A stretch of DNA of 64,000 nucleotides from positions 7,314,001-7,378,000 of the forward strand of contig NZ_CP109199.1 of the NCBI RefSeq assembly GCF_036250065.1, given 5' to 3'. Below are positions 33,499-50,466 of this stretch, in pieces; the stretch's first letter is position 1; every line of letters starts with the position of its first letter. Made by a program: the position numbers and the translations under genes. Source of the DNA: Micromonospora sp. NBC_01699 (GTDB taxonomy: Bacteria; Actinomycetota; Actinomycetes; Mycobacteriales; Micromonosporaceae). A model generated the notes under the pieces. The model made no database searches and had not been told where the DNA came from. It saw nothing but the letters and a program-made list of their open reading frames with translations.

Positions 33499-35481
33499 GG
33501 CGTGATCCGCGCCCGGTCCGAAGACCGGGCACAGCCACATCCATCCCTTCCGGGCGGTGCGCGTGGTAGTAGGCGTTGCGATCCTCGCCCGGTCCGGAAA
33601 CCAGGCGCAGCGGTTGGCCCTCGTCCACAGGCCGACCTCGTCCTGCGGTTGCGATCCTCGCCCGGTCCGGGAACCGGGCGCAGCTAGGACCAGCCTTCCT
33701 CTTGCCAGGACTCGTACTGGTTGCGATCCTCGCCCGGTCCGAAAACCGGGCGCAGCCTCGTGAAGAGGAACATGAACATCGTCGGCTGCGCGACGTTGCG
33801 ATCCTCGCCTGGTCCGGGGACCGGGCGCAGCTCGATCGCCAATGTAAACGGGTGGTTCGAAAAACCTGTCGTTGCGATCCTCGCCTGGTCCGGGAACCGG
33901 GCGCAGCGCGGCCGGCTCGATCCGCAACTGACGATGGTTCTGGACGTTGCGATCCTCGCCCGTCCGGGAACCGGGCGCAGCACTCGTACAGCCTCGACGT
34001 GGTGGAGCCGCGCGAGTGGTTGCGATCCTCGCCCGGTCCGGGAACCGGGCGCAGCGGACGAGCGTCGTCCGTCGATTCGGTTCGTGCTCGGCTGCGTTGC
34101 GATCCTCGCCCGGTCCGGGAACCGGGCGCAGCGCGCGAACGCTTCCGGAAGTCCTTCGCTCCGACCACCGGAGTTGCGATCCTCGCCCGGTCCGGGAACC
34201 GGGCGCAGCGGTGCCGCACCGACCGTGTAGCCGAACTCCCGCACCAGGTTGCGATCCTCGCCCGGTCCGGGAACCGGGCGCAGCGGGGCGGTCACCCGCT
34301 CCTGCTGACTGCCTCGATCGCTGTTGCGATCCTCGCCCGGTCCGGGAACCGGGCGCAGCCGTCGGTAAGGCTCAGCGCCGCATGATCCGGGACCTGTTGC
34401 GATCCTCGCCCGGTCCGGGAACCGGGCGCAGCGACGACATCAACCGGATCAAGGCCAGCTCGCAGGGGGCGTTGCGATCCTCGCCCGGTCCGGGAACCGG
34501 GCGCAGCCTCGATCGCGGATCGGTGATCAGGTCGTGTCGGCTGCGGTTGCGATCCTCGCCCGGTCCGGGAACCGGGCGCAGCCAGCGGGTTGCACCTGGC
34601 ACTGCGTACCGATCGCCTGTCGGCGGTTGCGATCCTCGCCCGGTCCGGGAACCGGGCGCAGCGTGTTCACCGGCGCGAGGTCGCTGCGGGAGGTCACCGC
34701 GTTGCGATCCTCGCCCGGTCCGGGAACCGGGCGCAGCTCAACCCGTTCGAGCCGAACCGCGAGGCCGGCATGGGCGTTGCGATCCTCGCCCGGTCCGGGA
34801 ACCGGGCGCAGCTGCCGCGCCAGCGGGGCCGTCGTGCTCGACCTGGACCGGTTGCGATCCTCGCCCGGTCCGGGAACCGGGCGCAGCCGCCCACGTCTTG
34901 AGCCAGTACCGGTCCGGCTGGCCCTTGTTGCGATCCTCGCCCGGTCCGGGAACCGGGCGCAGCGGGGTACCGATCCCGACACCGGGCGGGGAGCGAACCG
35001 GTTGCGATCCTCGCCCGGTCCGGGAACCGGGCGCAGCTACCGCGACTTCTTCCACTCGGCTGAACCGGATTGGGGTTGCGATCCTCGCCCGGTCCGGGAA
35101 CCGGGCGCAGCCACGTCATCGGCCGCAGCCGACTGTGCCGCACGTGTGTTGCGATCCTCGCCCGGTCCGGGAACCGGGCGCAGCTCTCCCGCGCGCGATC
35201 GCGAAGAGAGACCTGAGACTAAGTTGCGATCCTCGCCCGGTCCGGGAACCGGGCGCAGCGAGATGGCCACCGGGCCGTCCGTACCGCCATTGATGGAGTT
35301 GCGATCCTCGCCCGGTCCGGGAACCGGGCGCAGCTAGAGGAGGAGGTCGGCGGCCGAATGCCGACACCGGAGGTTGCGATCCTCGCCCGGTCCGGGAACC
35401 GGGCGCAGCTCGTTCGGCGCGGTCCTGCCGGCTCGCGAGCGGGTGTTGCGATCCTCGCCCGGTCCGGGAACCGGGCGCAGC
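33499..35481 (-). CRISPR. CRISPR array 1: 27 repeats of 37 nt, 26 spacers
   Basis: The plus-strand repeat begins GTTGCGATCCTCGCCCGG and ends CCGGGCGCAGC; intact copies start at 33575, 33648, 33720 and so on to 35445. The first copy (33499-33535) is degenerate, and copies 2-7 hold single changes, including two (33795, 33871) with CCTGG like array 2. Spacers are 36-43 nt. Degenerate repeats at the left and a conserved leader at the right mean transcription is leftward, so the crRNA-sense repeat ends GGATCGCAAC. An 8-bp stem (CGCCCGGT/ACCGGGCG) leaves an 11-nt handle, as expected for Cas5c processing. No cas genes are adjacent except a cas2 fragment. Confidence 0.98.
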
Positions 35482-39562: not shown

Positions 39563-41682
39563 GCCACGATCCTCGCCCGATCCGGAAACGGGCACAGCAT
39601 CCATTGCACGGTATCGAGCGTACCCAGCATCGAGTCGTCGCGATCCTCGCCTGGTCCGGGAACCAGGCACAGCGCTACCGGCTCTGTTGGATTGGCATTT
39701 GTTCACGACCTTTTGTGATCCTCGCCTGGTCCGGGCGCCGGACGCAGCTGGCCCGATTTCGGCAACAACGAGCCGGCCATCCGTCGTATTGCGATCCTCG
39801 CCTGGTCTGGGACCGGGCGCAGCCGATGTGCTCGGATCGGTGCCCGTTCACGGTCACGACGCCGTTGCGATCCTCGCCTGGTCTGGGGACCGGGCGCAGC
39901 CCCACGTAGTCGCGGCGCTGGTCGTCGGCACCGATGTTGCGATCCTCGCCTGGTCTGGGGACCGGGCGCAGCTACCCGGACCGGCCTGCTCCACTGGCGG
40001 CAGATCACGGCGTTGCGATCCTCGCCTGGTCTGGGGACCGGGCGCAGCTCCCACCGAAGAGGCCACGAGTCAACAAACCCGGCGTTGCGATCCTCGCCTG
40101 GTCTGGGGACCGGGCGCAGCCTGCTGGCGTGCGTCACTGACGTTCCGGGCGACATTGGTTGCGATCCTCGCCTGGTCTGGGGACCGGGCGCAGCCCGGCA
40201 CCGGCTGGGTCGCACCGGCGCACGAAACCGTTGCGATCCTCGCCTGGTCTGGGGACCGGCGCAGCCCGGCCGGGCCCGGCCTCCATGAGCGCGCTGCCGT
40301 AGTTGCGATCCTCGCCTGGTCTGGGGACCGGGCGCAGCTCCGTCTCGGCAGAAGTTCCTGACCAAGACCTGGGGGCGGTTGCGATCCTCGCCTGGTCTGG
40401 GGACCGGGCGCAGCGAGCGTCCATGATGGCCGCCCATGCGGCTGCTTACACGTTGCGATCCTCGCCTGGTCTGGGGACCGGGCGCAGCTGGACCAACACC
40501 CCCAGCCCAACCCCCGCAATCCTGATGTTGCGATCCTCGCCTGGTCTGGGGACCGGGCGCAGCCACTCGTCGGTAGTGAGGCCATCCTCGTCAAGGGGCG
40601 GAGTTGCGATCCTCGCCTGGTCTGGGGACCGGGCGCAGCTCCTCAACCACCGTCTCCTGACCGAGGTCCGGCAGGACCGTTGCGATCCTCGCCTGGTCTG
40701 GGGACCGGGCGCAGCCGTAGGTAGGTAGGCACCACCGGCCACACGCCCCCGGGTTGCGATCCTCGCCTGGTCTGGGGACCGGGCGCAGCCTGCCGTCGCC
40801 GGATCAGTACGGCCCTGCGGCAGCAGTTGCGATCCTCGCCTGGTCTGGGGACCGGGCGCAGCCAGACCAGGCCGCCGCGCGGTGACGTTCGGCCGTGGAC
40901 GTTGCGATCCTCGCCTGGTCTGGGGACCGGGCGCAGCAGGCGCTGACGTAGCCGGACTCGCCTTCGTGGTCAAAGTTGCGATCCTCGCCTGGTCTGGGGA
41001 CCGGGCGCAGCCCGGCGGTACCAGCATCGAATACATCCCGCTGCTCATGTTGCGATCCTCGCCTGGTCTGGGGACCGGGCGCAGCCGGCGGGCTCCGGCT
41101 CGGTCGGTCGTACGTTCACCCCACCGAGTTGCGATCCTCGCCTGGTCTGGGGACCGGGCGCAGCCCTGGCTCGATGCCACCAACGGCAGCACCCGTGAGG
41201 TTGCGATCCTCGCCTGGTCTGGGGACCGGGCGACCGAGTAGTAGGCGTGGAAGATGCCCTGCATCAGGCTGTGAGGTTGCGATCCTCGCCTGGTCTGGGG
41301 ACCGGGCGGAACTCCTTCCAGGCTTCCTGGCGCCAGCGGGCCATGTGAGGTTGCGATCCTCGCCTGGTCTGGGGACCGGGCGAATTCGTCGATCCGGCCG
41401 AACAGCAACATCGTGCACAATGAGGTTGCGATCCTCGCCTGGTCTGGGGACCGGGCGCGATCAGCTCGGTCAACGCGGTGGTGTCGAGTTCGTAATGAGG
41501 TTGCGATCCTCGCCTGGTCTGGGGACCGGGCGGCCGAAGATCCACAGGCCGAGGAAGGTGGATTCGAGGAAGAGGTTGCGATCCTCGCCTGGTCTGGGGA
41601 CCGGGCGCACCGGCACCCCGCGCCGACCAACTGGCCGCCCTGCGTAGAGGTTGCGATCCTCGCCTGGTCTGGGGACCGGGCG
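39563..41682 (-). CRISPR. CRISPR array 2: 29 repeats, the seven leader-proximal ones in altered register
   Basis: The plus-strand repeat begins GTTGCGATCCTCGCCTGG and ends ACCGGGCGCAGC (37 nt) in copies 5-22. Copies 1-4 (39563-39823) are degenerate, marking the old end. From copy 23 (core from 41200) the repeat stops at ...GGACCGGGCG and lacks CAGC. Copies 24-29 (41272, 41346, 41421, 41496, 41571, 41646) instead begin TGAG or AGAG before GTTGCG, so the unit remains 37 nt. TGAG is the end of the spacer at 41165-41199. Spacers are mostly 37-39 nt. Transcription is leftward from the leader beside cas2; crRNA-sense repeat 3' end GGATCGCAAC. Confidence 0.98.
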
Positions 41683-41807
41683 GGTTCACGAACAGCACAT
41701 ATAGACGAGCGACGAAGGAATGTGCTGCTGTTTGTGATCCGATTTGTTCATCTCATCCGGGTTTCTTGGTTCGGGACCTTCGGCGATTCTGTGTGAGCTT
41801 GGGGTTC
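41683..41807 (-). promoter_or_regulatory. Leader of CRISPR array 2
   Basis: It fills the gap between the first repeat and the cas2 stop. It aligns gaplessly with the array 1 leader, except that in array 1 the repeat's last four bases CAGC lie between GGGCG and the leader, while here they are missing. It should carry the array promoter and the Cas1-Cas2 anchor. Confidence 0.85.
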
Positions 41808-42098
41808 CTAGATCACGAAGGGGCCGCGTGGGTCGACGGCGCGTGGCTTGCCGAGGTGTTCGACGTCGTCCAGTGCGCTCGCCGGCAGCCGGTAGATCCG
41901 TACGCTGTCGCGTACCGGGTCGATGACGGCTTGGAGTTCGGCGACCAGTCGTACCTTGTCGGGGTCGCGGCAGACGATTTCGAACACCGACTTCTGCACC
42001 CGGTGTCCGTACGCTTCGCAGATCTTCGCGACCGCGCGGAGTCGGCGCTGGCCCTGCGGTGTGACGGTCTCGACGTCGTACGTGACCAGCAGATCCAC
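41808..42098 (-). CDS. cas2: CRISPR-associated endonuclease Cas2 (type I-C)
   Basis: A 96-residue ferredoxin-fold protein, structural partner of Cas1 in spacer integration. VDLLVTYDVETVTPQGQRRLRAVAKICEAYGHRVQKSVFEI is the Cas2 pattern, with the conserved Asp after the first strand and the QKSVFE strand. GTG 42098 lies one base after the cas1 stop. The TAG stop is at the edge of the CRISPR leader. Confidence 0.97.
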   Translation of the reverse strand: MDLLVTYDVETVTPQGQRRLRAVAKICEAYGHRVQKSVFEIVCRDPDKVRLVAELQAVIDPVRDSVRIYRLPASALDDVEHLGKPRAVDPRGPFVI

Positions 42099-42099
42099 C

Positions 42100-43128
42100 T
42101 CAGCTCACCATCCACGGCTGGTACGCGACCAGATCACCTCGCAGATGACGGGCAAGGAGCCTGGCCTGCACCAACGGTAGCAACGCCCCCGGCACCTCGC
42201 GCCCCAACTGGACGTGTTGCCAACTCCGCTGACGACTCTGCTGCCACGCACCGAGCACCGACTTACGTCCCCCGTCCGTCAGCCGGTACCCGCCGTTGGG
42301 CAGCGCTTCGAAGTCGTCGCGGGTCAGCTCCCGCCGGTTGAGCAGGGTGAGCGCGAGGCGGTCGGCGAGCAGCGGGCGGAACTCCTCCATCAGGTCCAGG
42401 GCGAGCGACGGCTTACCGGAACGCACCCCGTGCAGGAAGCCGATGTACGGGTCGAGCCCGACCTGCTCAAGCGCGCCCTGCACCGCCACCCGCAGCATCC
42501 CGTACAGGAAGGAGAGCAGGCAGTTCAGCGGGTCTGTGGGTGGGCGTTTGTTCCGCCCGGACGCCTTCCATTCCTTGCTCTCCGTCAACAGGTACGGCAT
42601 GGCGGCGAAGTAGTCGCGGGCGGCGATGCCCTCCACGCCCAGCACCTCGTTGGCGCTGGCCGCGGTGCCGAGCAGCCCGAGCCGTTCGGCCAGCAACTCG
42701 GCGCTCGCCCGCAGGGCGACCTGTCGGTGACCGGAGGTGTCCCGGGCGGTCCGGAGCAGCACCTGCCGACTGTTGTGAATTTTGCCGGCCACCATCGCAA
42801 CCGCGATTTGTAGCCGCTGTTCGACCGAGTCGGCCACCCGGTGCTGGGCCTGGCGCAGCAGCGGATTTCCGGTGGTGGGGCCGACCGTACGGGCCCGGAA
42901 GCGCCCGTTCCCGGTGAGCCAACTGATGGATCTGCCGTCGTCGGCGCAGCGGAGGATCAGGTCGTCGGTGACGTTGACGCCACCGAAGACAACGAAGTGA
43001 TCGATCCGGACGAGCGGGAGGAGCCGCCGTCCGGTCTGGTCGGGGTGGAAGACGCGTACGGTGTCGCCGTCGAGGTGCAGGCTGGTGCCGGGTGTCTGCA
43101 CGTAGAGGGTGTTGAGCAGCTCAGTCAC
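42100..43128 (-). CDS. cas1: CRISPR-associated integrase Cas1 (type I-C)
   Basis: A 342-residue integrase that inserts new spacers at the leader end. The N-terminal beta domain (LNTLYVQTPGTSLHLDGDTVRV) and the helical catalytic domain are complete. The metal ligands are in place: Glu in NEVLGVEGIAARDYF, His in IGFLHGVRSGKPSLALDLMEEFRP and the acidic residues at DLMEE. GTG 43128 overlaps the cas4 stop by 8 bases. This enzyme presumably carried out the register-shifted integrations in the neighbouring array. Confidence 0.97.
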   Translation of the reverse strand: MTELLNTLYVQTPGTSLHLDGDTVRVFHPDQTGRRLLPLVRIDHFVVFGGVNVTDDLILRCADDGRSISWLTGNGRFRARTVGPTTGNPLLRQAQHRVADSVEQRLQIAVAMVAGKIHNSRQVLLRTARDTSGHRQVALRASAELLAERLGLLGTAASANEVLGVEGIAARDYFAAMPYLLTESKEWKASGRNKRPPTDPLNCLLSFLYGMLRVAVQGALEQVGLDPYIGFLHGVRSGKPSLALDLMEEFRPLLADRLALTLLNRRELTRDDFEALPNGGYRLTDGGRKSVLGAWQQSRQRSWQHVQLGREVPGALLPLVQARLLARHLRGDLVAYQPWMVS

Positions 43129-43765
43129 GCCACTGTCCCAATGGTCGCGGGGTCAACAGGTCGGGAATCGCTTGCCTGCGGCCGTCGGTGAGTTCGGGCA
43201 GGCAGTCCTCGCGCAGAGAGCATTTCCGGCAGCGGGCGTCGTTGCGCGCCGCCGGCAGCGTCCCGGTGACGATCAGCTCCCGTACGGCCTCGGCCGCGCG
43301 AACAACCTGGTCGAGCAGTTCGGCGGTGATGGGTACGGGGTGCCGGCGCCGTTCGGCGACCGAGTAGACGTATCCGGTCGGCACGGCAAAGCCAGCCTCG
43401 ATCAGGCAGAGCGCCTGGCCGGCGAGTTGCAGTTCGGCGGGACCGCCGGGCAGGTAGCGCCCGACCTTGTACTCGACCGGCGTCGCCGTACCCTGCTCGA
43501 ATTCGACCACGTCGCAGATGCCGCGTAGGCCGTGGACGTGGCTCCAGACCTGGAGGGAGCGCACGACGGTGAGCCCTCGGCGGCGCTGGATTCCGGGCAG
43601 GTCGACGGCGGTGTGGCTGAGGTCGCCGCGTACGGTTTCCGCGCTTTCCGACCAGACGCCCTCGACGTGGATGAGGGCGGTCTGCCGGTGGCAGTAGTCG
43701 TAGTGTTCCAGCGCGGACAGCGGCACCTCCCGGAGGCCGCTGTCCGCCTGGGAATCGTCCGTCAC
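43121..43765 (-). CDS. cas4: CRISPR-associated exonuclease Cas4
   Basis: A 214-residue Cas4 that trims and selects PAM-containing prespacers with Cas1-Cas2. The four cluster cysteines are visible: one in LSALEHYDYCHRQ and three in CRKCSLREDC near the C terminus. The RecB-like nuclease motif has the Asp of GICDVVEFE and the Glu-x-Lys of VEYKVGR. GTG 43765 overlaps the cas7 stop (GTGA). The longer in-frame extension would overlap cas7 and is rejected. Confidence 0.95.
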   Translation of the reverse strand: MTDDSQADSGLREVPLSALEHYDYCHRQTALIHVEGVWSESAETVRGDLSHTAVDLPGIQRRRGLTVVRSLQVWSHVHGLRGICDVVEFEQGTATPVEYKVGRYLPGGPAELQLAGQALCLIEAGFAVPTGYVYSVAERRRHPVPITAELLDQVVRAAEAVRELIVTGTLPAARNDARCRKCSLREDCLPELTDGRRQAIPDLLTPRPLGQWRD

Positions 43766-44625
43766 GGCCAGAGGTCGACCAGCTTGGTCAGCTCGACGCC
43801 GTCGGGCAGCCCCGACTCGTCCAGCTGACGGGCGTAGTCGGTGTGTGCGCGGGGCGCCTTCTCCTTGTTGATCCGTTCGAGGGTGATCCGCTGGGTGAGG
43901 CTGGCCGACGGGGCGACCCCGAACGCGTCCGGGTGGCTGAAGACGTACAGGCCGCAGAGTTTCATTTCGCCCCGGGTGGCGGCCCGGTCGTGGTCGAACA
44001 TGACGCTGATCGACTGCCAGAGCGCGGCCAGATCGTCGCTGGTGACACCGGTCTTTGCGGCGCGGGGTGCCGAGTAGAACGCGTGCGCCCGGTAGAGGCC
44101 GTACGGCACGGTCCACTTCGAGCCGATTTCCGTACGCTCGCCTTTGTCTATGTCGTCCTGGCGGGTCTGGGTGACCCGGGTGATGGTGTGGTCGGTGGGC
44201 AGGATCGGGTCGATGCTGCGCGAGAAGGTGAGCTGCAACGGCCCACGGACCTGGCCGGCGCCCCCGCCCTTGCCGGTGCTGAGCACCCCGCCGAACATCC
44301 GGATGTCGAAGTAGTGCTCGCAGAGCCAGCGCTGGGCCTCGTCGGCCTTGCCAGGATTGGCCTTGAGCGCGGCCTCGATCCGGGTGTTGAGGGCGAAGCC
44401 GGCCTCGACGAAGATGCCGTAGCGCGGGTCGTCGCCACGCAGCAACGACACCGTGTCCCGGATCTTGCGCTTGATCGCCACGTCGGTGACGAGCCCCTGG
44501 CCGCTCTCGTCATCCGTACGCGGCTGGTTGCCCGCGTCCGGGTCGCCGTTCGGGTTGCCGTCGGCGACGTCGAACAGCAGTACGGCGTCGTGTCGCCGGG
44601 TCGGGTCCAGGTGGGCGGCGGTCAT
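43762..44625 (-). CDS. cas7c: Cascade backbone protein Cas7 (Csd2, type I-C)
   Basis: A 287-residue RAMP protein that coats the crRNA spacer as the repeated backbone of Cascade. The N terminus DAVLLFDVADGNPNGDPDAGNQPRTD is the Csd2/Csh2 signature, then VTDVAIKRKIRDTVSL and IRMFGGVLSTG. ATG 44625 overlaps the cas8c stop (ATGA). Complete length for the subtype. Confidence 0.97.
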   Translation of the reverse strand: MTAAHLDPTRRHDAVLLFDVADGNPNGDPDAGNQPRTDDESGQGLVTDVAIKRKIRDTVSLLRGDDPRYGIFVEAGFALNTRIEAALKANPGKADEAQRWLCEHYFDIRMFGGVLSTGKGGGAGQVRGPLQLTFSRSIDPILPTDHTITRVTQTRQDDIDKGERTEIGSKWTVPYGLYRAHAFYSAPRAAKTGVTSDDLAALWQSISVMFDHDRAATRGEMKLCGLYVFSHPDAFGVAPSASLTQRITLERINKEKAPRAHTDYARQLDESGLPDGVELTKLVDLWP

Positions 44626-46445
44626 GCGCTCTCGTCTCCTTCGGGCTTCGGTGCCTCTTGCGCCGGCTCCGGGGGCAGGTCGGTCTTCTTCTTGCTGGCG
44701 GCTGCGGCGATCCGCTCGGCTCGCAGGTCCGCACGTTGCTGGTGGTAGCCGAGGATGAACTCGGCCTTGTCGGTGAGCACGGCACCGCTCGGGATCGCGT
44801 CGAGCCGCATGAACAGGTCATCGAGCCGCCGCTCGTACGCCTCCGACCAGTTCGGTCGGTGCAGCGGCCCACGGAGCCGCTTGAGCCAGGCGGTGGTGTT
44901 GCGTCGGCCGGAGATGAGCACCACCTGCGGGTTGTCGATGGCCCGGCTGAAGTAACGCTCGGCGAACGTCGTGTTCAGCTTCTGATCGGCGACCCGGAAC
45001 ACGGTTCGTTGCAGGTCGTCCATCACCGCCATGATCCGGCCGGACACGTAGGCCGGGTGCTTTTTGTCCACACTCAAGGTTGGCGTCAGCCTCTCTCGGT
45101 CGTCTTGGCTCAGGTACGGATGGCGGCGCAGGGCGAGCCGGATCAGTCCGGCGCGGGCCGCGTCGAGCCGCCCGTCGAGACGAATCCGGTTGATCACGTG
45201 GTGGAGCAGTTTCGGTGGCAACGGGCGGCCGAGCAGGGCGGCACCGATCAGGCGGTGGAACATGTCCGGCGGGCGATGCTCCCCGGACGCGCCGAACTTC
45301 GTCCAGGACCCGTTGGCCCCGTTACGACCGGCCTCGAACCGCCCGGCCACCCTGGCAAGGTGCGGTATGCCGGGGTAGACCACCTCGCCGGTCCAGGCGT
45401 CCACCATCGGGTAGTCGGCGAACCACTTGCGGATGTTGTCCTGGATGGCGCGAATCGGCTGCTCGACCCAGTCTCGTACCACCACTCGGGCGACGTTGCC
45501 GCCGACCGTCACCGAGCAGTACGTGGAGGAATCGTCAACGCTTCTGTCCGAGCCTGTGGCGGGTCCGGCGAGCATTTCCTGGATCGCGGTCGGATCGGGT
45601 TGCTCGACCCAGGCCCACGGGTCGTAGGTCGAGCCGCCCAGCACCCACCAGGCCAGCCGGGCGTTCTGTCCGGAGAACGCGGTGCTGTGTCGCGGGTCGG
45701 AGAGCAGCCCGGTCAACGCCGTCATGAACTTCAGCCCGCAGTCGGCGCAGATCGGCGTGTTGGTCAGGAACTTTTGCAACTCGTAGCCGTGCACCGCCTC
45801 GTTCATGCTGACGAGCGAGGCACCCTGGGTAGCTCCCGGCAGCCAGCGTTGCGGGATCTGCTGCGGGATCGTCTTCAGCAGGGGCTGGACCTGCCCGCAG
45901 ACCAGGCACATGCCGACCCGCCCGGAACCTTTGCGGTCACCGGCGATACCGGCCCAAAAGCGGATGGCCTGTTCGGTTTCGGCGGCATAGGCGCCGGCCA
46001 CCCGGAACGTGATCAGGTCGGGCCGGGCCCAGCCGTCGGGCGGTTCGAGCTTGCGATCGTGGCCGTCCCGGTAGAACGCGGCGATGGCGGGGCCCGGTCC
46101 GGTCGGCTCGGCCGCTGCCCACTGGTCGATCAGCTCACGGAACGCGTCGTACTGTTTCGCCACCCGTTCGGGCTTTGCGCCCTCGGAGAGCCAGCCGAAG
46201 ACGTACTCGCCGTTGTCGACTCCGAGCACGGGGGCAATCCCCACGGTACGGGTGACGGCCGGCACCAGGCGCAGGGTGCCGTACTTCCGCTGCGGATCGG
46301 TCGGCTCCGCCGTGTTGACGAAGTCGCCGGTGGGAGTGCCGTCAGCGCTGAGGTTGAGGATCCAGCGCACCGCCTTGCGGGCGTAGAACGGTGGGATCAC
46401 GTCGTCGCTGGTCTCGGCGTACTCGACCAGGCGTTGCAGGAGCAC
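44622..46445 (-). CDS. cas8c: Cascade large subunit Cas8c (Csd1, type I-C)
   Basis: A 607-residue large subunit expected to recognise the PAM and recruit Cas3. The start LLQRLVEYAETSDDVIPPFY is the typical Csd1 opening. A zinc-binding pair CLVCGQ ... CADCG lies in the middle and IRLDGRLDAARAGLIRLALRR near the C-terminal part. In type I-C an internal start often yields a small Cas11 subunit; the gene is long enough for this, but I cannot identify the site with confidence. GTG 46445 overlaps the cas5 stop by one base. Confidence 0.95.
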   Translation of the reverse strand: MLLQRLVEYAETSDDVIPPFYARKAVRWILNLSADGTPTGDFVNTAEPTDPQRKYGTLRLVPAVTRTVGIAPVLGVDNGEYVFGWLSEGAKPERVAKQYDAFRELIDQWAAAEPTGPGPAIAAFYRDGHDRKLEPPDGWARPDLITFRVAGAYAAETEQAIRFWAGIAGDRKGSGRVGMCLVCGQVQPLLKTIPQQIPQRWLPGATQGASLVSMNEAVHGYELQKFLTNTPICADCGLKFMTALTGLLSDPRHSTAFSGQNARLAWWVLGGSTYDPWAWVEQPDPTAIQEMLAGPATGSDRSVDDSSTYCSVTVGGNVARVVVRDWVEQPIRAIQDNIRKWFADYPMVDAWTGEVVYPGIPHLARVAGRFEAGRNGANGSWTKFGASGEHRPPDMFHRLIGAALLGRPLPPKLLHHVINRIRLDGRLDAARAGLIRLALRRHPYLSQDDRERLTPTLSVDKKHPAYVSGRIMAVMDDLQRTVFRVADQKLNTTFAERYFSRAIDNPQVVLISGRRNTTAWLKRLRGPLHRPNWSEAYERRLDDLFMRLDAIPSGAVLTDKAEFILGYHQQRADLRAERIAAAASKKKTDLPPEPAQEAPKPEGDESA

Positions 46446-47143
46446 TAGGCCACCAGACCTTCGGGCAGTGCCAGCTCGATTCCGTGCTCCGGGACGGCGA
46501 GGACCCCGTCGATGACACGGGCGGCGAACCACTCCATCCGGGGCTGACCGCCCTTACCGTCCCGGTGGATGGAGTGCAGCATGATGCCGACCTCCTCGTT
46601 GACGTGCGCTCGCTCCGTGTCGTCCGGCCAGCCGAACTCGGCACTGAACTCCCGCACGCCCAGGTACGGCTGCTGGAAGCAGGCGCCCTTACGCACCCGC
46701 CGCCGCAACTGGTCCCGGTACGCCGCCACCGACTTGTCGGCGTGCGCCGCAAGCTCGATATGGGCGTGGATCCGGTACGCCACATCGCGCAGGCACACCG
46801 CGTTGCGCTGGTCCCGCCGGGCCGCCGTGTCGACCCGCCGGGATCCCTTGATCGCCTCGGCCAGGGGCGCGACGTCCGAGGTCTCGTTGCGCCGGATGGT
46901 GAACTGCTTGATCGGCTTCAGCACCTCGATCGCGACGATCCGGTAGCGCATCTCGGGCTTCCAGAAGATCGCTTCCAGTACGCCAACCGCGGCCGACGGT
47001 GTCATCACCGGGTAGGTGACCCGTTCGACCTTCAACTCTGGCCGAGAGAACAGCGCCGCCTCGGCGCTGACCTGCACCACCACCGGCAGATCCCCCTCGG
47101 GACTCCGCCGCAGCGTCACCCCGTTGACCACTTCCGCTGTCAC
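46445..47143 (-). CDS. cas5c: crRNA-processing Cascade protein Cas5 (Cas5c/d, type I-C)
   Basis: A 232-residue RAMP that, in type I-C, replaces Cas6 as the pre-crRNA endonuclease and stays on the 5' handle. FSRPELKVERVTYPVMTPSAAVGVLEAIFWKPEMRYRI is the family's N-terminal pattern, with later IHRDGKGGQPRMEWFAARVIDGVL. GTG 47143 follows GGAGG by 8 bp; an upstream TTG is less likely. First gene of the tight cas5-cas2 run. Confidence 0.93.
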   Translation of the reverse strand: MTAEVVNGVTLRRSPEGDLPVVVQVSAEAALFSRPELKVERVTYPVMTPSAAVGVLEAIFWKPEMRYRIVAIEVLKPIKQFTIRRNETSDVAPLAEAIKGSRRVDTAARRDQRNAVCLRDVAYRIHAHIELAAHADKSVAAYRDQLRRRVRKGACFQQPYLGVREFSAEFGWPDDTERAHVNEEVGIMLHSIHRDGKGGQPRMEWFAARVIDGVLAVPEHGIELALPEGLVA

Positions 47144-47900
47144 AGACCCGACCTCCAGATCAGGGATCAACGCGCGTCAGGACGGCGCCTACTCGCTACA
47201 CGACCACTCATACACCACAAGATTCATGCGCTGTAAGACTGGATGATGGGTACGACAATTTTCAGAAGACCATCATCATGATCGACAACGTTTCATAACA
47301 GGCGTCACGCAGACCCGCTTGTCGGCTTCCCGACTATTGCAAATCCCGAGCGTAACCTCAACCGACCAACGGCCGACGCACGGTCTGTCGACTTAGCCAG
47401 GAAGACAACGATCGGTCAACCCCATATCCAGAAAGGACGGACAGCGTGTGCGTCGGCCCGAACGACGCACGGACCGATGCCCCGTCGACCTCCAGGCCAA
47501 CTTCATTGCAGCGCAACGCACCGCATTCACAACGTTTCGACCCTCGACGCACGAAGCTTCGCCGCAGGCGCCCCTCGACTAGTGGACGCATGAAGATCAC
47601 TGGGGGACAGACCGGCGCCGACTAGCGAGCCCACGACGCTGCCTCCCAGCTCACAAACCTTAGCCCAACCCCCTACCTAGATGATGGTGTCAATCTAGGA
47701 TTCGTTGTAAATGCAGTGTCCTGCGAAGCAATAGCGATCCACGGTTGCCGAATGCTCACACTGTGTGCCATCCTGTTTGCCATCTAGCCGGATTGGCGGT
47801 GACGACCATGACTTGAGGGACCCGAATAAGAGGCGGTCCGCTGCACGAACAGCGGACCGCCAGCTCCCACCACAAAGTCCCAGAGCAGTAAGGAGATTTC
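47144..47900. other. Intergenic region upstream of cas5
   Basis: About 750 bp with no convincing gene. It is AT-richer than the chromosome, particularly at 47240-47350 and 47640-47790. It must hold the promoter of the cas5-cas2 run and that of the small membrane protein gene. Apart from the hairpin at 47832-47861 I see no clear repeats. Confidence 0.5.
47832..47861. terminator. Perfect 12-bp hairpin upstream of the small membrane protein gene
   Basis: GGCGGTCCGCTG (47832-47843) pairs fully with 47850-47861 around the loop CACGAA. It lies 39 bp before ATG 47901, so it is either a terminator of something to its left or a structured 5' leader. Confidence 0.55.
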
Positions 47901-48195: not shown

Positions 48196-50466
48196 TTACA
48201 GGACAAAGCACTCTAGGTTAGGATCGAGTTCGATTCCCGTGCGTTGGTCGTACTCGCCGCACCACTCGGCCAGCGCGCCACGATGCACATCGGTGCCGAG
48301 GATCGGTTTCATCAGCGCGCTCACACCCGGCTTCCTCAGCGCGCTCTGATGCACGTTGGTCGTGTACGGCTGGAGGAGCCGCAACTTCGCCATGTCGGGG
48401 ACCGGCGAGTTTCGCAGCTCTTCCACCACCCGCTCAACCTCAAGCTGCTTTTCCGGGGTCTCCGCGCCCTGTGGCGTCACTACGGCGACACCGCCATCAT
48501 CGATCATCCGGAACGCCAACTTCGGGTCGCGCCGATTTTTACCGGCCTCCACCATCGGGCCGTCAGAGACGGTCTCGAACTCCCACCGGGCACGAGCCTT
48601 CTGGATCAACTGCCCGACGTGCTGCGCATCCGCCAGGTTGAGCGCGTCGTACACGTCCCGGTAGTAACGCTCCAACGCGGCAAGGTCGTCGGGATCGTTC
48701 TTGTCCTGCCCAAAATGCTGGTCGGCGCACCCGATCAGGGTCTTGTACGTCGGCGGGTGGCTCCCGTCCTCCGGCGCGAAGATCACCACTCGACCACCCT
48801 GCGGGAGCCGCCCTTCCCGGTTCGCCCGCCCAGCGGCCTGGAGCAACGAATCCGCCGGTGCCATCGCCCGGAACACCACCGGGAAATCCACGTCCATCCC
48901 GGCCTCGATGAGCTGGGTGGAGACGAGCAGCACCCGCTCACCGTCCTTGAGCATCCGCCGTACCCGTGTCAGCACCCGTTGCCGATGGTCCGGACACATC
49001 CGGGTGGACAGATGCCAGGCCACGCCCTCCGGCTCGGTGTCTCGCCAATGGTCGAAGACGGTCTTGGCGTTCGCGGTGGTGTTGACGACCACCAGCGCCG
49101 CTGGCTCGGCCGCCGCCTGCTCGGCGATGCCGGACAGGGTCGGCCTTGGCTCGTCGAGCTGCCAGTCGAACCGTACCCGTCGCAGGTCTTTGACCAGCTT
49201 GGGCGTGTCGTGGATCAGGTCGGTGCACGGTACGCCCTTGAATTCGTCCAGGGCCCAGAAGCTCGGTTGGGTCGCGGAGGAGAGCAGCACGGTCGCGCCG
49301 AAGTGCTGGACCAGCAGCCGCAACCCGTCGAGGATCGGTGCGAGCATCGGGTGTGGCAGTGCCTGGACCTCGTCCAACACGATCACCGAATTGGCGAGTC
49401 GGTGCACCCGCCGCATCGCAGCGGGCTTGCGCGCGTAGAGCGACTCGAACAGCCGGACGAACGTCGTGACGACAAACGGCGCATCCCAGTTCTCGGCCGC
49501 CAGCCGGGCCCAACGCCTGGCCGCCTCGTCGTCGAAGTTGGCCTGGCTGTGGTGCTCCAGGACAACCGGCTCCGCCCCGTCCTCATCGAGCATCCGTCGA
49601 TAGACGGCGGCATTCTGCTCGGTGATGGTGAGAAACGGTACGGCGACGATGACCCGCTGTTTGCCGTACTTCGCCGCGTGCCGGAGCGCGAACCCGGCAC
49701 CCGCGAGAGTCTTGCCCGCCCCGGTCGGTGCGCCCAGTCGAAACACCCCCGGCCGATTCTCGGCCGCACCCAGGCAGTCCGCGTAGACCCGTTCACGGAG
49801 TACGCCGATCGGCGTGTTCCCACGTCCGGCCACCTCGTCGCCCCGGCGCTGCTCGAACAACTTGTGGAGGCGCTCGAAGTCGGCATCGTCACGGACCTGC
49901 GGCCCGGAGAGCTGCCGGAAGTGAGCGCTGGTGTCGAGGCTGTCCGCGTCCACCAGGGCGCTGTAACACAGCCGCAGCGCCATCTCCCCCACCAGCGGGT
50001 CCCGCCATGCCTCGGGTACGAACCCGGCCAGGCTGGCCGGCAGGTCCGGCAGCAGCCCGGACAGCTCGGTCTCGGCCGAGGCGATGTGCTCCGAATACCT
50101 GACAAGCCGTTTCTTCAGTTCGCCGGTTAGCCGTGGACCGTCGACCAGGCCGCCATGGTGGCCGTAGATCCCGTTCGCGAAGCCGCCGAGCCCCCGCTCC
50201 CCGGCGATCCGGGTGCCCAGTGCCTTGTGGTCGATGCCCACCGCCGTACCGGTGTTCGCCACCGCCGCCAATTTGTCCTGCCATCCGCAGGCGGCTTTGC
50301 CCACGTCGTGCAGCGCCCCCAACCAGTACGCCACGTCGCCGCCGCCGAAGGGCGCCGCGAACCGTTTGGCCAGCTCGGCGGTGCCCCGAAGATGGTCCGC
50401 GAGGCCGTGCCACCGCGGAATTCCCGGGGCAGGGCTGTGCGCCCAGAGCGGCCGACCAGCTGACAT
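48196..50466 (-). CDS. cas3: CRISPR-associated helicase-nuclease Cas3 (type I-C)
   Basis: A 756-residue effector that Cascade recruits to unwind and degrade target DNA. The N-terminal HD nuclease has HGLADHLRGTAELA, the HD pair in LGALHDVGKAA and the later GHHGG. The SF2 helicase follows with Walker A LGAPTGAGKT, the DEVQ box (VIVLDEVQALPHPML), SATQP and the C-terminal motifs VSTQLIEAGMDVDFP and QAAGRANREG. All motifs look intact. It is separated from cas5 by about 1 kb, so it has its own promoter, probably in 50467-50588. Confidence 0.96.
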   Translation of the reverse strand: MSAGRPLWAHSPAPGIPRWHGLADHLRGTAELAKRFAAPFGGGDVAYWLGALHDVGKAACGWQDKLAAVANTGTAVGIDHKALGTRIAGERGLGGFANGIYGHHGGLVDGPRLTGELKKRLVRYSEHIASAETELSGLLPDLPASLAGFVPEAWRDPLVGEMALRLCYSALVDADSLDTSAHFRQLSGPQVRDDADFERLHKLFEQRRGDEVAGRGNTPIGVLRERVYADCLGAAENRPGVFRLGAPTGAGKTLAGAGFALRHAAKYGKQRVIVAVPFLTITEQNAAVYRRMLDEDGAEPVVLEHHSQANFDDEAARRWARLAAENWDAPFVVTTFVRLFESLYARKPAAMRRVHRLANSVIVLDEVQALPHPMLAPILDGLRLLVQHFGATVLLSSATQPSFWALDEFKGVPCTDLIHDTPKLVKDLRRVRFDWQLDEPRPTLSGIAEQAAAEPAALVVVNTTANAKTVFDHWRDTEPEGVAWHLSTRMCPDHRQRVLTRVRRMLKDGERVLLVSTQLIEAGMDVDFPVVFRAMAPADSLLQAAGRANREGRLPQGGRVVIFAPEDGSHPPTYKTLIGCADQHFGQDKNDPDDLAALERYYRDVYDALNLADAQHVGQLIQKARARWEFETVSDGPMVEAGKNRRDPKLAFRMIDDGGVAVVTPQGAETPEKQLEVERVVEELRNSPVPDMAKLRLLQPYTTNVHQSALRKPGVSALMKPILGTDVHRGALAEWCGEYDQRTGIELDPNLECFVL

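Follow-up and report, generated by a model that had tools for sequence, protein, structure and literature searches.

How does a CRISPR (clustered regularly interspaced short palindromic repeats) integrase size a new repeat once the repeat beside the leader has changed its length, and what does such an array record from then on? Both questions are raised by a type I-C CRISPR-Cas locus of Micromonospora sp. NBC_01699, which lies on the minus strand of a 64,000-nt stretch (the window; NZ_CP109199.1, positions 7,314,001 to 7,378,000) of a single-contig 8.28-Mb genome. At the leader junction of one of its two arrays, array 2, four bases of the repeat are missing, and the spacers added afterwards match the host's own chromosome. 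We consider it likely, with a probability of about 0.8, that a leader-anchored and elastic type I-C ruler went on adding spacers after this junction indel, and that the array, blind in its new register, tolerates self spacers. Whether self and non-self are told apart during acquisition or by survivorship is an old question, and one that loci of this kind make directly testable in public genomes.

The register shift and the spacers that followed it

Read on the minus strand with the leader first, the old repeat of array 2 is the 37-nt GCTGCGCCCGGTCCCCAGACCAGGCGAGGATCGCAAC. Repeats 1-22 (39563-41164) keep this register and, counting the founder spacer, belong with 22 pre-shift spacers. From the founder, repeat 23 (41200-41232), onwards, the four leader-proximal bases GCTG (CAGC on the plus strand) are gone from all seven leader-side repeats. 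The founder spacer (41165-41199) natively begins with CTCAC, and bases copied from it stand on the distal side of the six newest repeats. Repeats 24 (41272-41308, the first post-shift copy), 25 (41346-41382), 26 (41421-41457) and 27 (41496-41532) consist of 33 nt of the old repeat plus CTCA, while repeats 28 (41571-41607) and 29 (41646-41682, the newest) end in CTCT. Post-shift periods measure 76, 74, 75, 75, 75 and 75 nt. The CTCT variant is probably a captured spacer base and not a point mutation, since one copy of 36 nt would have made a T of the spacer part of the repeat.

The array 2 leader (41683-41811) separates cas2 from the newest repeat; it ends in TTCGTGAACC and directly abuts CGCCC. 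Aligned without gaps to the leader of array 1, it shares 84 of 129 positions at offset 0 and 24-36 at offsets 1-6. In close relatives the leader ends directly before GCTG, in variants such as TGCTCGTGAACC (locus L040) and TGCTCGCGAACC (L042); given these near-identical ends, it is array 2 that lost repeat bases, and its leader end looks intact. Integration out of register without any deletion is ruled out, as GCTG would then remain in the leader. The initial annotation had already described the CAGC loss from the gapless leader alignment, the TGAG or AGAG (CTCA or CTCT on the minus strand) of the six later repeats, and the capture of TGAG from the founder spacer followed by copying, and each of these holds up in the sequence. 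A chance origin of the shift is very unlikely because of this nested copying and the self-protospacers described below. Further down the array, repeat 10 (40230-40265) has an internal 1-nt deletion without a counterpart in newer repeats, which therefore probably arose once repeat 10 had left the leader.

Searches of phages and plasmids with the arrays returned mostly weak matches and a conserved cytochrome bd gene. This last match led us to search for self targets, for which the post-shift portion of array 2 was compared with 61 genomes including the host's. Each of the six post-shift spacers has one place in the host genome outside the arrays (the cytochrome bd spacer also has a second, at 95%). 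Counted back from the newest, S6 (41233-41271, the first after the shift) is exact over 38 nt at C1:3995740-3995781 in a PMT_2 mannosyltransferase gene, S5 (41309-41345) over 36 nt at C1:5846214-5846259, and S3 (41458-41495) over 37 nt at C1:2711789-2711825 in an ArsR-type regulator gene. S2 (41533-41570), extended by the neighbouring base of repeat 28, is exact over 39 nt in a gene for cytochrome bd oxidase subunit I (C1:3736922-3736962), and S1 (41608-41645) is exact over 38 nt in an M48 peptidase gene (C1:6020592-6020629). The canonical protospacer-adjacent motif (PAM), TTC, stands directly 5' of all five of these exact protospacers. S4 (41383-41420) matches at 36 of 38 nt at C1:5515388-5515427, without TTC, which makes six of six self matches. 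The targets are scattered over 2.7-6.0 Mb, and a gene family was recognised for four of them and none for the other two.

These protospacers also bear on the added bases themselves. CTC resembles the I-C PAM, and CTCA and CTCT might on that account be untrimmed PAM-side remnants of each prespacer and not copied repeat. However, the host bases at the corresponding position in the five exact cases are CCTT, GCTT, GGTT, TTCT and GTTC, and the real TTC adjoins the acquired sequence. The A and T variants also succeed one another by age in nested fashion, and such remnants would not account for the loss of GCTG. We give this explanation almost no credence.

The spacers on the far side of the break are different. 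The own-genome search found no full-length self match for any of the 22 pre-shift spacers, which consequently yielded no protospacer for a PAM check. Array 1 (33499-35481), preceded by a leader of its own, lies some 4 kb beyond array 2 and serves as an internal control: its 27 repeats show an intact GCTG junction and no shift. One of its 26 spacers matches the host genome, again without TTC. This is spacer 15 (34583-34625), unusually long at 43 nt, of which 42 match at C1:2014384-2014425 with CAG replacing TTC.

How the repeat is measured

With TTC taken as the boundary of the acquired sequence, the length of each copied repeat can be read directly. From S6 to S1 the lengths are 38, 38, at most 37, 38, 36 and 37 nt. 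Repeats 24 and 25 were thus copied up to CTCAC, repeat 27 up to CTCAT, and repeat 28 only up to CTC, its final T being a protospacer base. The extra C of S6 and of S5 could instead be the last base of TTC, and the T of S3 could not. The initial annotation had proposed anchoring at the leader together with a fixed 37-bp measure. Its anchoring stands, supported by the window array and by an independent case described below; the rigid measure does not, with PAM-defined copies of 36-38 nt in the window and 36-nt repeats in a relative, and the self-matching of the post-shift spacers had been overlooked.

It had also proposed looking for leader-proximal shifts in other I-C arrays. We searched for cas1 in overlapping sets of 3, 354, 397 and 396 genomes and added a contig scan limited to the best 80 loci, fetching those cas1 places that had the better I-C scores. 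Automatic calling gave 99 non-redundant arrays of at least six copies next to I-C-like cas1 genes; in 70, the repeats are 37 nt long. Register breaks were sought by a split test plus inspection, which replaced sliding windows of four copies that had proved too noisy. Besides the window array, a break of more than 1 nt was found in one of the 99 surveyed arrays, L042 of genome G353. A further 28 arrays near more distant cas1 genes, untyped and below the I-C cut-off, contained no convincing edge shift. Several shift candidates were discarded, some after partial inspection, as substitutions, degenerate old ends or reversed orientation (L033/1, L036, L061, L063, L064, L069, L127, L128, L151 and L161); the signal in L220 was a run of N.

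At the leader junction of L042 stands a tandem 26-bp copy of the first 26 repeat bases. Its five new repeats consist of 26 + 11 = 37 nt, with their end falling inside the former old repeat. Four of the five post-shift spacers match G353's own chromosome exactly over 36-37 nt, and because TTC stands exactly 5' of each protospacer, the PAM-defined copies are 37 nt long in four of four cases. The window array and L042 thus amount to two natural and independent tests of repeat sizing by the Cas4-containing type I-C integrase. Elsewhere in L042, an old internal repeat (2437-2480) is without its handle and half a spacer, and a deletion of this kind could also have made the 26 + 37 junction.

Throughout these arrays, the leader-side cut stays at the leader end. 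Copies start with the base after the leader in array 2, in L042 and in L043, and leader bases are included in none. The far cut follows the distance from the leader and not the old edge after the loss of 4 nt and the gain of 26 bp, so the proposal that length sets it is borne out to that extent. Within about 1 nt, however, the sequence at the distal edge seems to matter. In L043, the newest six or seven repeats lack 1 nt on the leader side. The base after CAAC varies among them (T, T, G, C, T, C, T), so they retained the native distal edge and shrank to 36 nt, and length by itself cannot be the rule. L053 may be a second 1-nt case or a compensated 1-nt shift: its first base varies in repeats 2 and 4, a C after CAAC is common to the three newest repeats, and the array is ambiguous in this respect. 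Two extra G at the leader-repeat junction of L046 are without a clear matching change in its copies. On the reverse strand of that locus (1432-1456, cas1-oriented), a G precedes nine of the ten newest repeats, a possible 1-nt extension. In L151, which has 38 repeats, the last repeat base has changed from C to A in the newest 30; the register is unchanged, and a distal-edge substitution therefore does not shift the cut.

Repeat rulers of another kind, set by motifs within the repeat, are reported for types I-E, I-B and II-A (PMC6895254). If the far cut were likewise set by a motif near the distal end, the pattern in the window would be accidental. Such a ruler holds the distal edge fixed after upstream indels, as is seen after the 1-nt loss in L043 and may be the case in the ambiguous L053. 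However, after a loss of 4 nt an internal ruler predicts 33-nt repeats and after a gain of 26 bp a distal-motif ruler predicts 63-nt repeats, and neither is seen. We therefore regard an internal motif as an improbable explanation. A ruler based on the hairpin fits L042 and not the window, where the distance from hairpin to cut rose from 11 to 14-16 nt. Judging from the sequences, leader distance is the measure that fits both arrays. We infer that the ruler is leader-anchored and slightly elastic, and that the second attack can shift about 1 nt towards an edge it prefers.

The sequence itself shows that, once four repeat bases had been lost at the leader-repeat junction of the I-C array, later acquisitions began exactly at the leader end with the far cut 36-38 nt away, and 3-5 bases of the first spacer joined the later repeats. 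As to the mechanism, the Cas4-Cas1-Cas2 complex, spanning about 37 bp, would make its first attack at the leader junction and its second at a distance of about 37 bp, with the local sequence fine-tuning the second site within about 1 nt only.

A probably blind array as a possible record of acquisition

Does the association between register break and self spacers extend beyond the window? In G353, the four self targets lie on the same strand inside 6 kb of locus L202 (C1:3336000-3355500), a closeness for which the chance with four random positions is about 2e-9. The region carries ordinary metabolic and transport genes; with acyl-CoA dehydrogenase, sugar transporter, AMP-binding, short-chain dehydrogenase and phosphotransferase genes there, a prophage origin is unlikely. 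The newest spacer of G353 has no good match in its own genome and none in phages. The clustering suggests priming, or else a local DNA source or acquisition hot spot. It could also be taken as a sign that self spacers are kept for use, for example to regulate the targeted genes, since four spacers address one region in register and with TTC. Against this idea, the window targets are scattered, lie in unrelated genes where a family could be recognised, and, read in the shifted register, adjoin an apparent PAM that is wrong; we think it very unlikely.

Spacers outside the breaks served as controls. None of the 11 pre-shift spacers of G353, one of which is a truncated interval, matches its own genome. 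When 78 spacers were searched jointly against 14 genomes, with matches listed to an E value of 1e-6, no self match was found for the second array of G353 (0/12), for L043 (0/7) or for L053 (0/4). The same search gave no exact main-chromosome match with TTC for 55 newest spacers, five from each of 11 intact arrays. A further match, of the newest G231 spacer at 6958134-6958169, was left uncounted, as it is a spacer position in another G231 array. Over the two genomes with a break, 10 of 11 post-shift spacers are self-matching. Exact main-chromosome matches with TTC number 9 of 11 after a break versus 0 of 137 elsewhere (Fisher p ~8e-13), and self matches of any kind, near and plasmid-like ones included, 10 of 11 versus 4 of 137 (p ~1e-11); both tests assume independent spacers, which the G353 cluster violates. 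A visible defect in an array is tied to a change in what it records: no self was detected before the break, and nearly all that was added after it is self.

In type I-C systems the handle is 11 nt long. In the shifted register of the window array, the three host bases beside the guide are TCA, GAG, CGC, GGC, GCC and CCA, and never TTC. With a handle of that length, CRISPR RNAs (crRNAs) from this array would carry CUCA or CUCU between handle and acquired guide. In G353, register and PAM are correct, and crRNAs would carry a replaced handle, GCTGCGCCCGG in place of AGGATCGCAAC. With such crRNAs, Cascade would be unable to license a self target. Register, apparent PAM and survival point to the shifted array being blind, and because it would be blind, normally lethal self spacers would be tolerated. 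Self spacers that would kill in an intact array would be kept in a blind one, whose content would come close to an unselected record of the DNA sampled by the adaptation machinery.

Together with the small shifts above and the fact that only two arrays here have a shift of more than 1 nt, several observations weigh against this account. S4 is inexact and lacks TTC. Blindness in G353 would have to come from the altered handle alone, its guides being in register and adjacent to a PAM. The four self matches in intact arrays include one exact chromosomal match in G231, with GCC in place of TTC, and two newest spacers of G207 that match the 79.7-kb contig C2 (L214) with TTC, one exactly and one with a single mismatch; this contig looks like a plasmid, which would make it an apparent targeting of a resident replicon. 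Weak self matches could also have escaped scoring, as the genome search scored the best 40 of 154, 233 and 442 candidates per genome and the joint search the best 21 of 237-691.

A further possibility is that interference is dead or blocked throughout the genome, by an anti-CRISPR or by silenced cas genes, so that self spacers are tolerated whatever the register. In the I-C system of Xanthomonas albilineans many self spacers are reported to be tolerated through AcrIC11 (PMC10810201), and self spacers are described in a third of 75 Salinispora strains (PMC4223832). The other arrays of both our genomes may, moreover, have ceased acquiring earlier. However, the self spacers begin at the register break in two genomes, and the other arrays contain 1 of 26 (without TTC) and 0 of 12. 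These within-array breaks and self-poor second arrays speak against a genome-wide block as the sole cause. The cas genes, too, align with those of relatives over most of their length (the cas2 of G353 lay outside the comparison). Overall, such a block seems to us unlikely, if less so than the internal-motif ruler.

In the window, all seven Cas proteins were covered by this comparison. Their genes are arranged as cas3-cas5c-cas8c-cas7-cas4-cas1-cas2, followed by the leader and array 2. The cas3 gene (48196-50466) encodes HD and helicase domains; cas5c (46445-47170), cas7 (csd2, 43762-44625) and cas2 (41808-42098) were assigned by family matches, and cas4 (43121-43744) by comparison with relatives. 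The product of cas8c (csd1, 44622-46532), also assigned by family matches, aligns with relatives from residue 29 on, so that its true start may lie near 46448. The type I-C profiles all scored above their cut-offs (TIGR01863, 244.7 bits; TIGR02589, 263.2; TIGR01876, 132.2; TIGR03640, 427.0), the last of them for cas1 (42100-43128). The gap between cas3 and cas5 could be dismissed as a sign of a broken operon, as gaps occur there in several relatives too. In G353, the cas7-cas4 gap measures about 0.87 kb (L210, 11899-12768); in five relatives it is about 24-45 bp. In the genome that holds the window, the repeat family of its arrays recurs far from the cas locus, as a mini-array of two repeats (L211, C1:5203900-5204900) and as a single degenerate repeat (L212, C1:5011700-5012400).

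A wider reading is one that we put forward tentatively, at somewhat less than even odds. Type I-C adaptation may here have little or no built-in discrimination between self and non-self, and the foreign content of ordinary arrays would then stem mostly from the death of self recorders, with register-broken arrays recording unselected acquisition. The contrast between scattered targets in the window and targets clustered in 6 kb in G353 would then show that a crRNA with the wrong handle can still prime acquisition and yet not kill. Arrays with a register break suggest themselves as a simple screen for unselected spacer records.

Comparison with known systems

The I-C complex of Cas4, Cas1 and Cas2 characterised earlier uses the PAM 5'-GAA-3' (TTC as read here), with Cas4 cutting directly at the PAM (PMC6519985). 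Our locus resembles that system in its cas order, in the leader beside cas2, and in a GAA/TTC PAM that is cut in the same way at the exact self-protospacers. The difference is that the choice of the second site can be read here from natural indels, whereas the passages on that system are silent on this choice. Repeat-size rulers described for type I-E (Goren 2016, via citing papers), I-B and II-A are motifs within the repeat (PMC6895254). In these systems, as here, the second site is found by distance, and extra spacer bases can enter the repeat. Their cut, however, moves with the motif, while here the changes of -4 and +26 leave it about 37 nt from the leader, and L043 alone behaves like them. 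The answer suggested by our arrays, leader-anchored and elastic by about 1 nt, thus differs from internal rulers. For second-site integration in type V-A, the spacer-side repeat end and a ruler are reported to be both needed (a 2026 paper, PMC13034035).

As for the self spacers, at the level of titles and abstract openings we found no literature report of self recording after a natural register break. According to PMC6990116, a 2010 survey put the self share of all spacers at 0.4%, and mutation of adjacent repeats counts among the reasons given for ineffective self spacers. Self-targeting arrays treated there, and those of type I-C and I-F1 in Xanthomonas albilineans (PMC10810201), share with ours the presence of many self spacers in a living cell. 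Unlike in those arrays, a register break inside one array here parts the pre-shift from the post-shift spacers, and the same division is repeated in a second genome. A parallel for the change in recording comes from a type II-A system with cleavage-dead Cas9, in which plasmids supplied 4% of the new spacers, down from 68% (Wei 2015, via PMC6990116). There, as in our account, spacer sources lose their bias towards foreign DNA once cleavage is absent; that was a laboratory II-A system, whereas ours is a natural I-C array.

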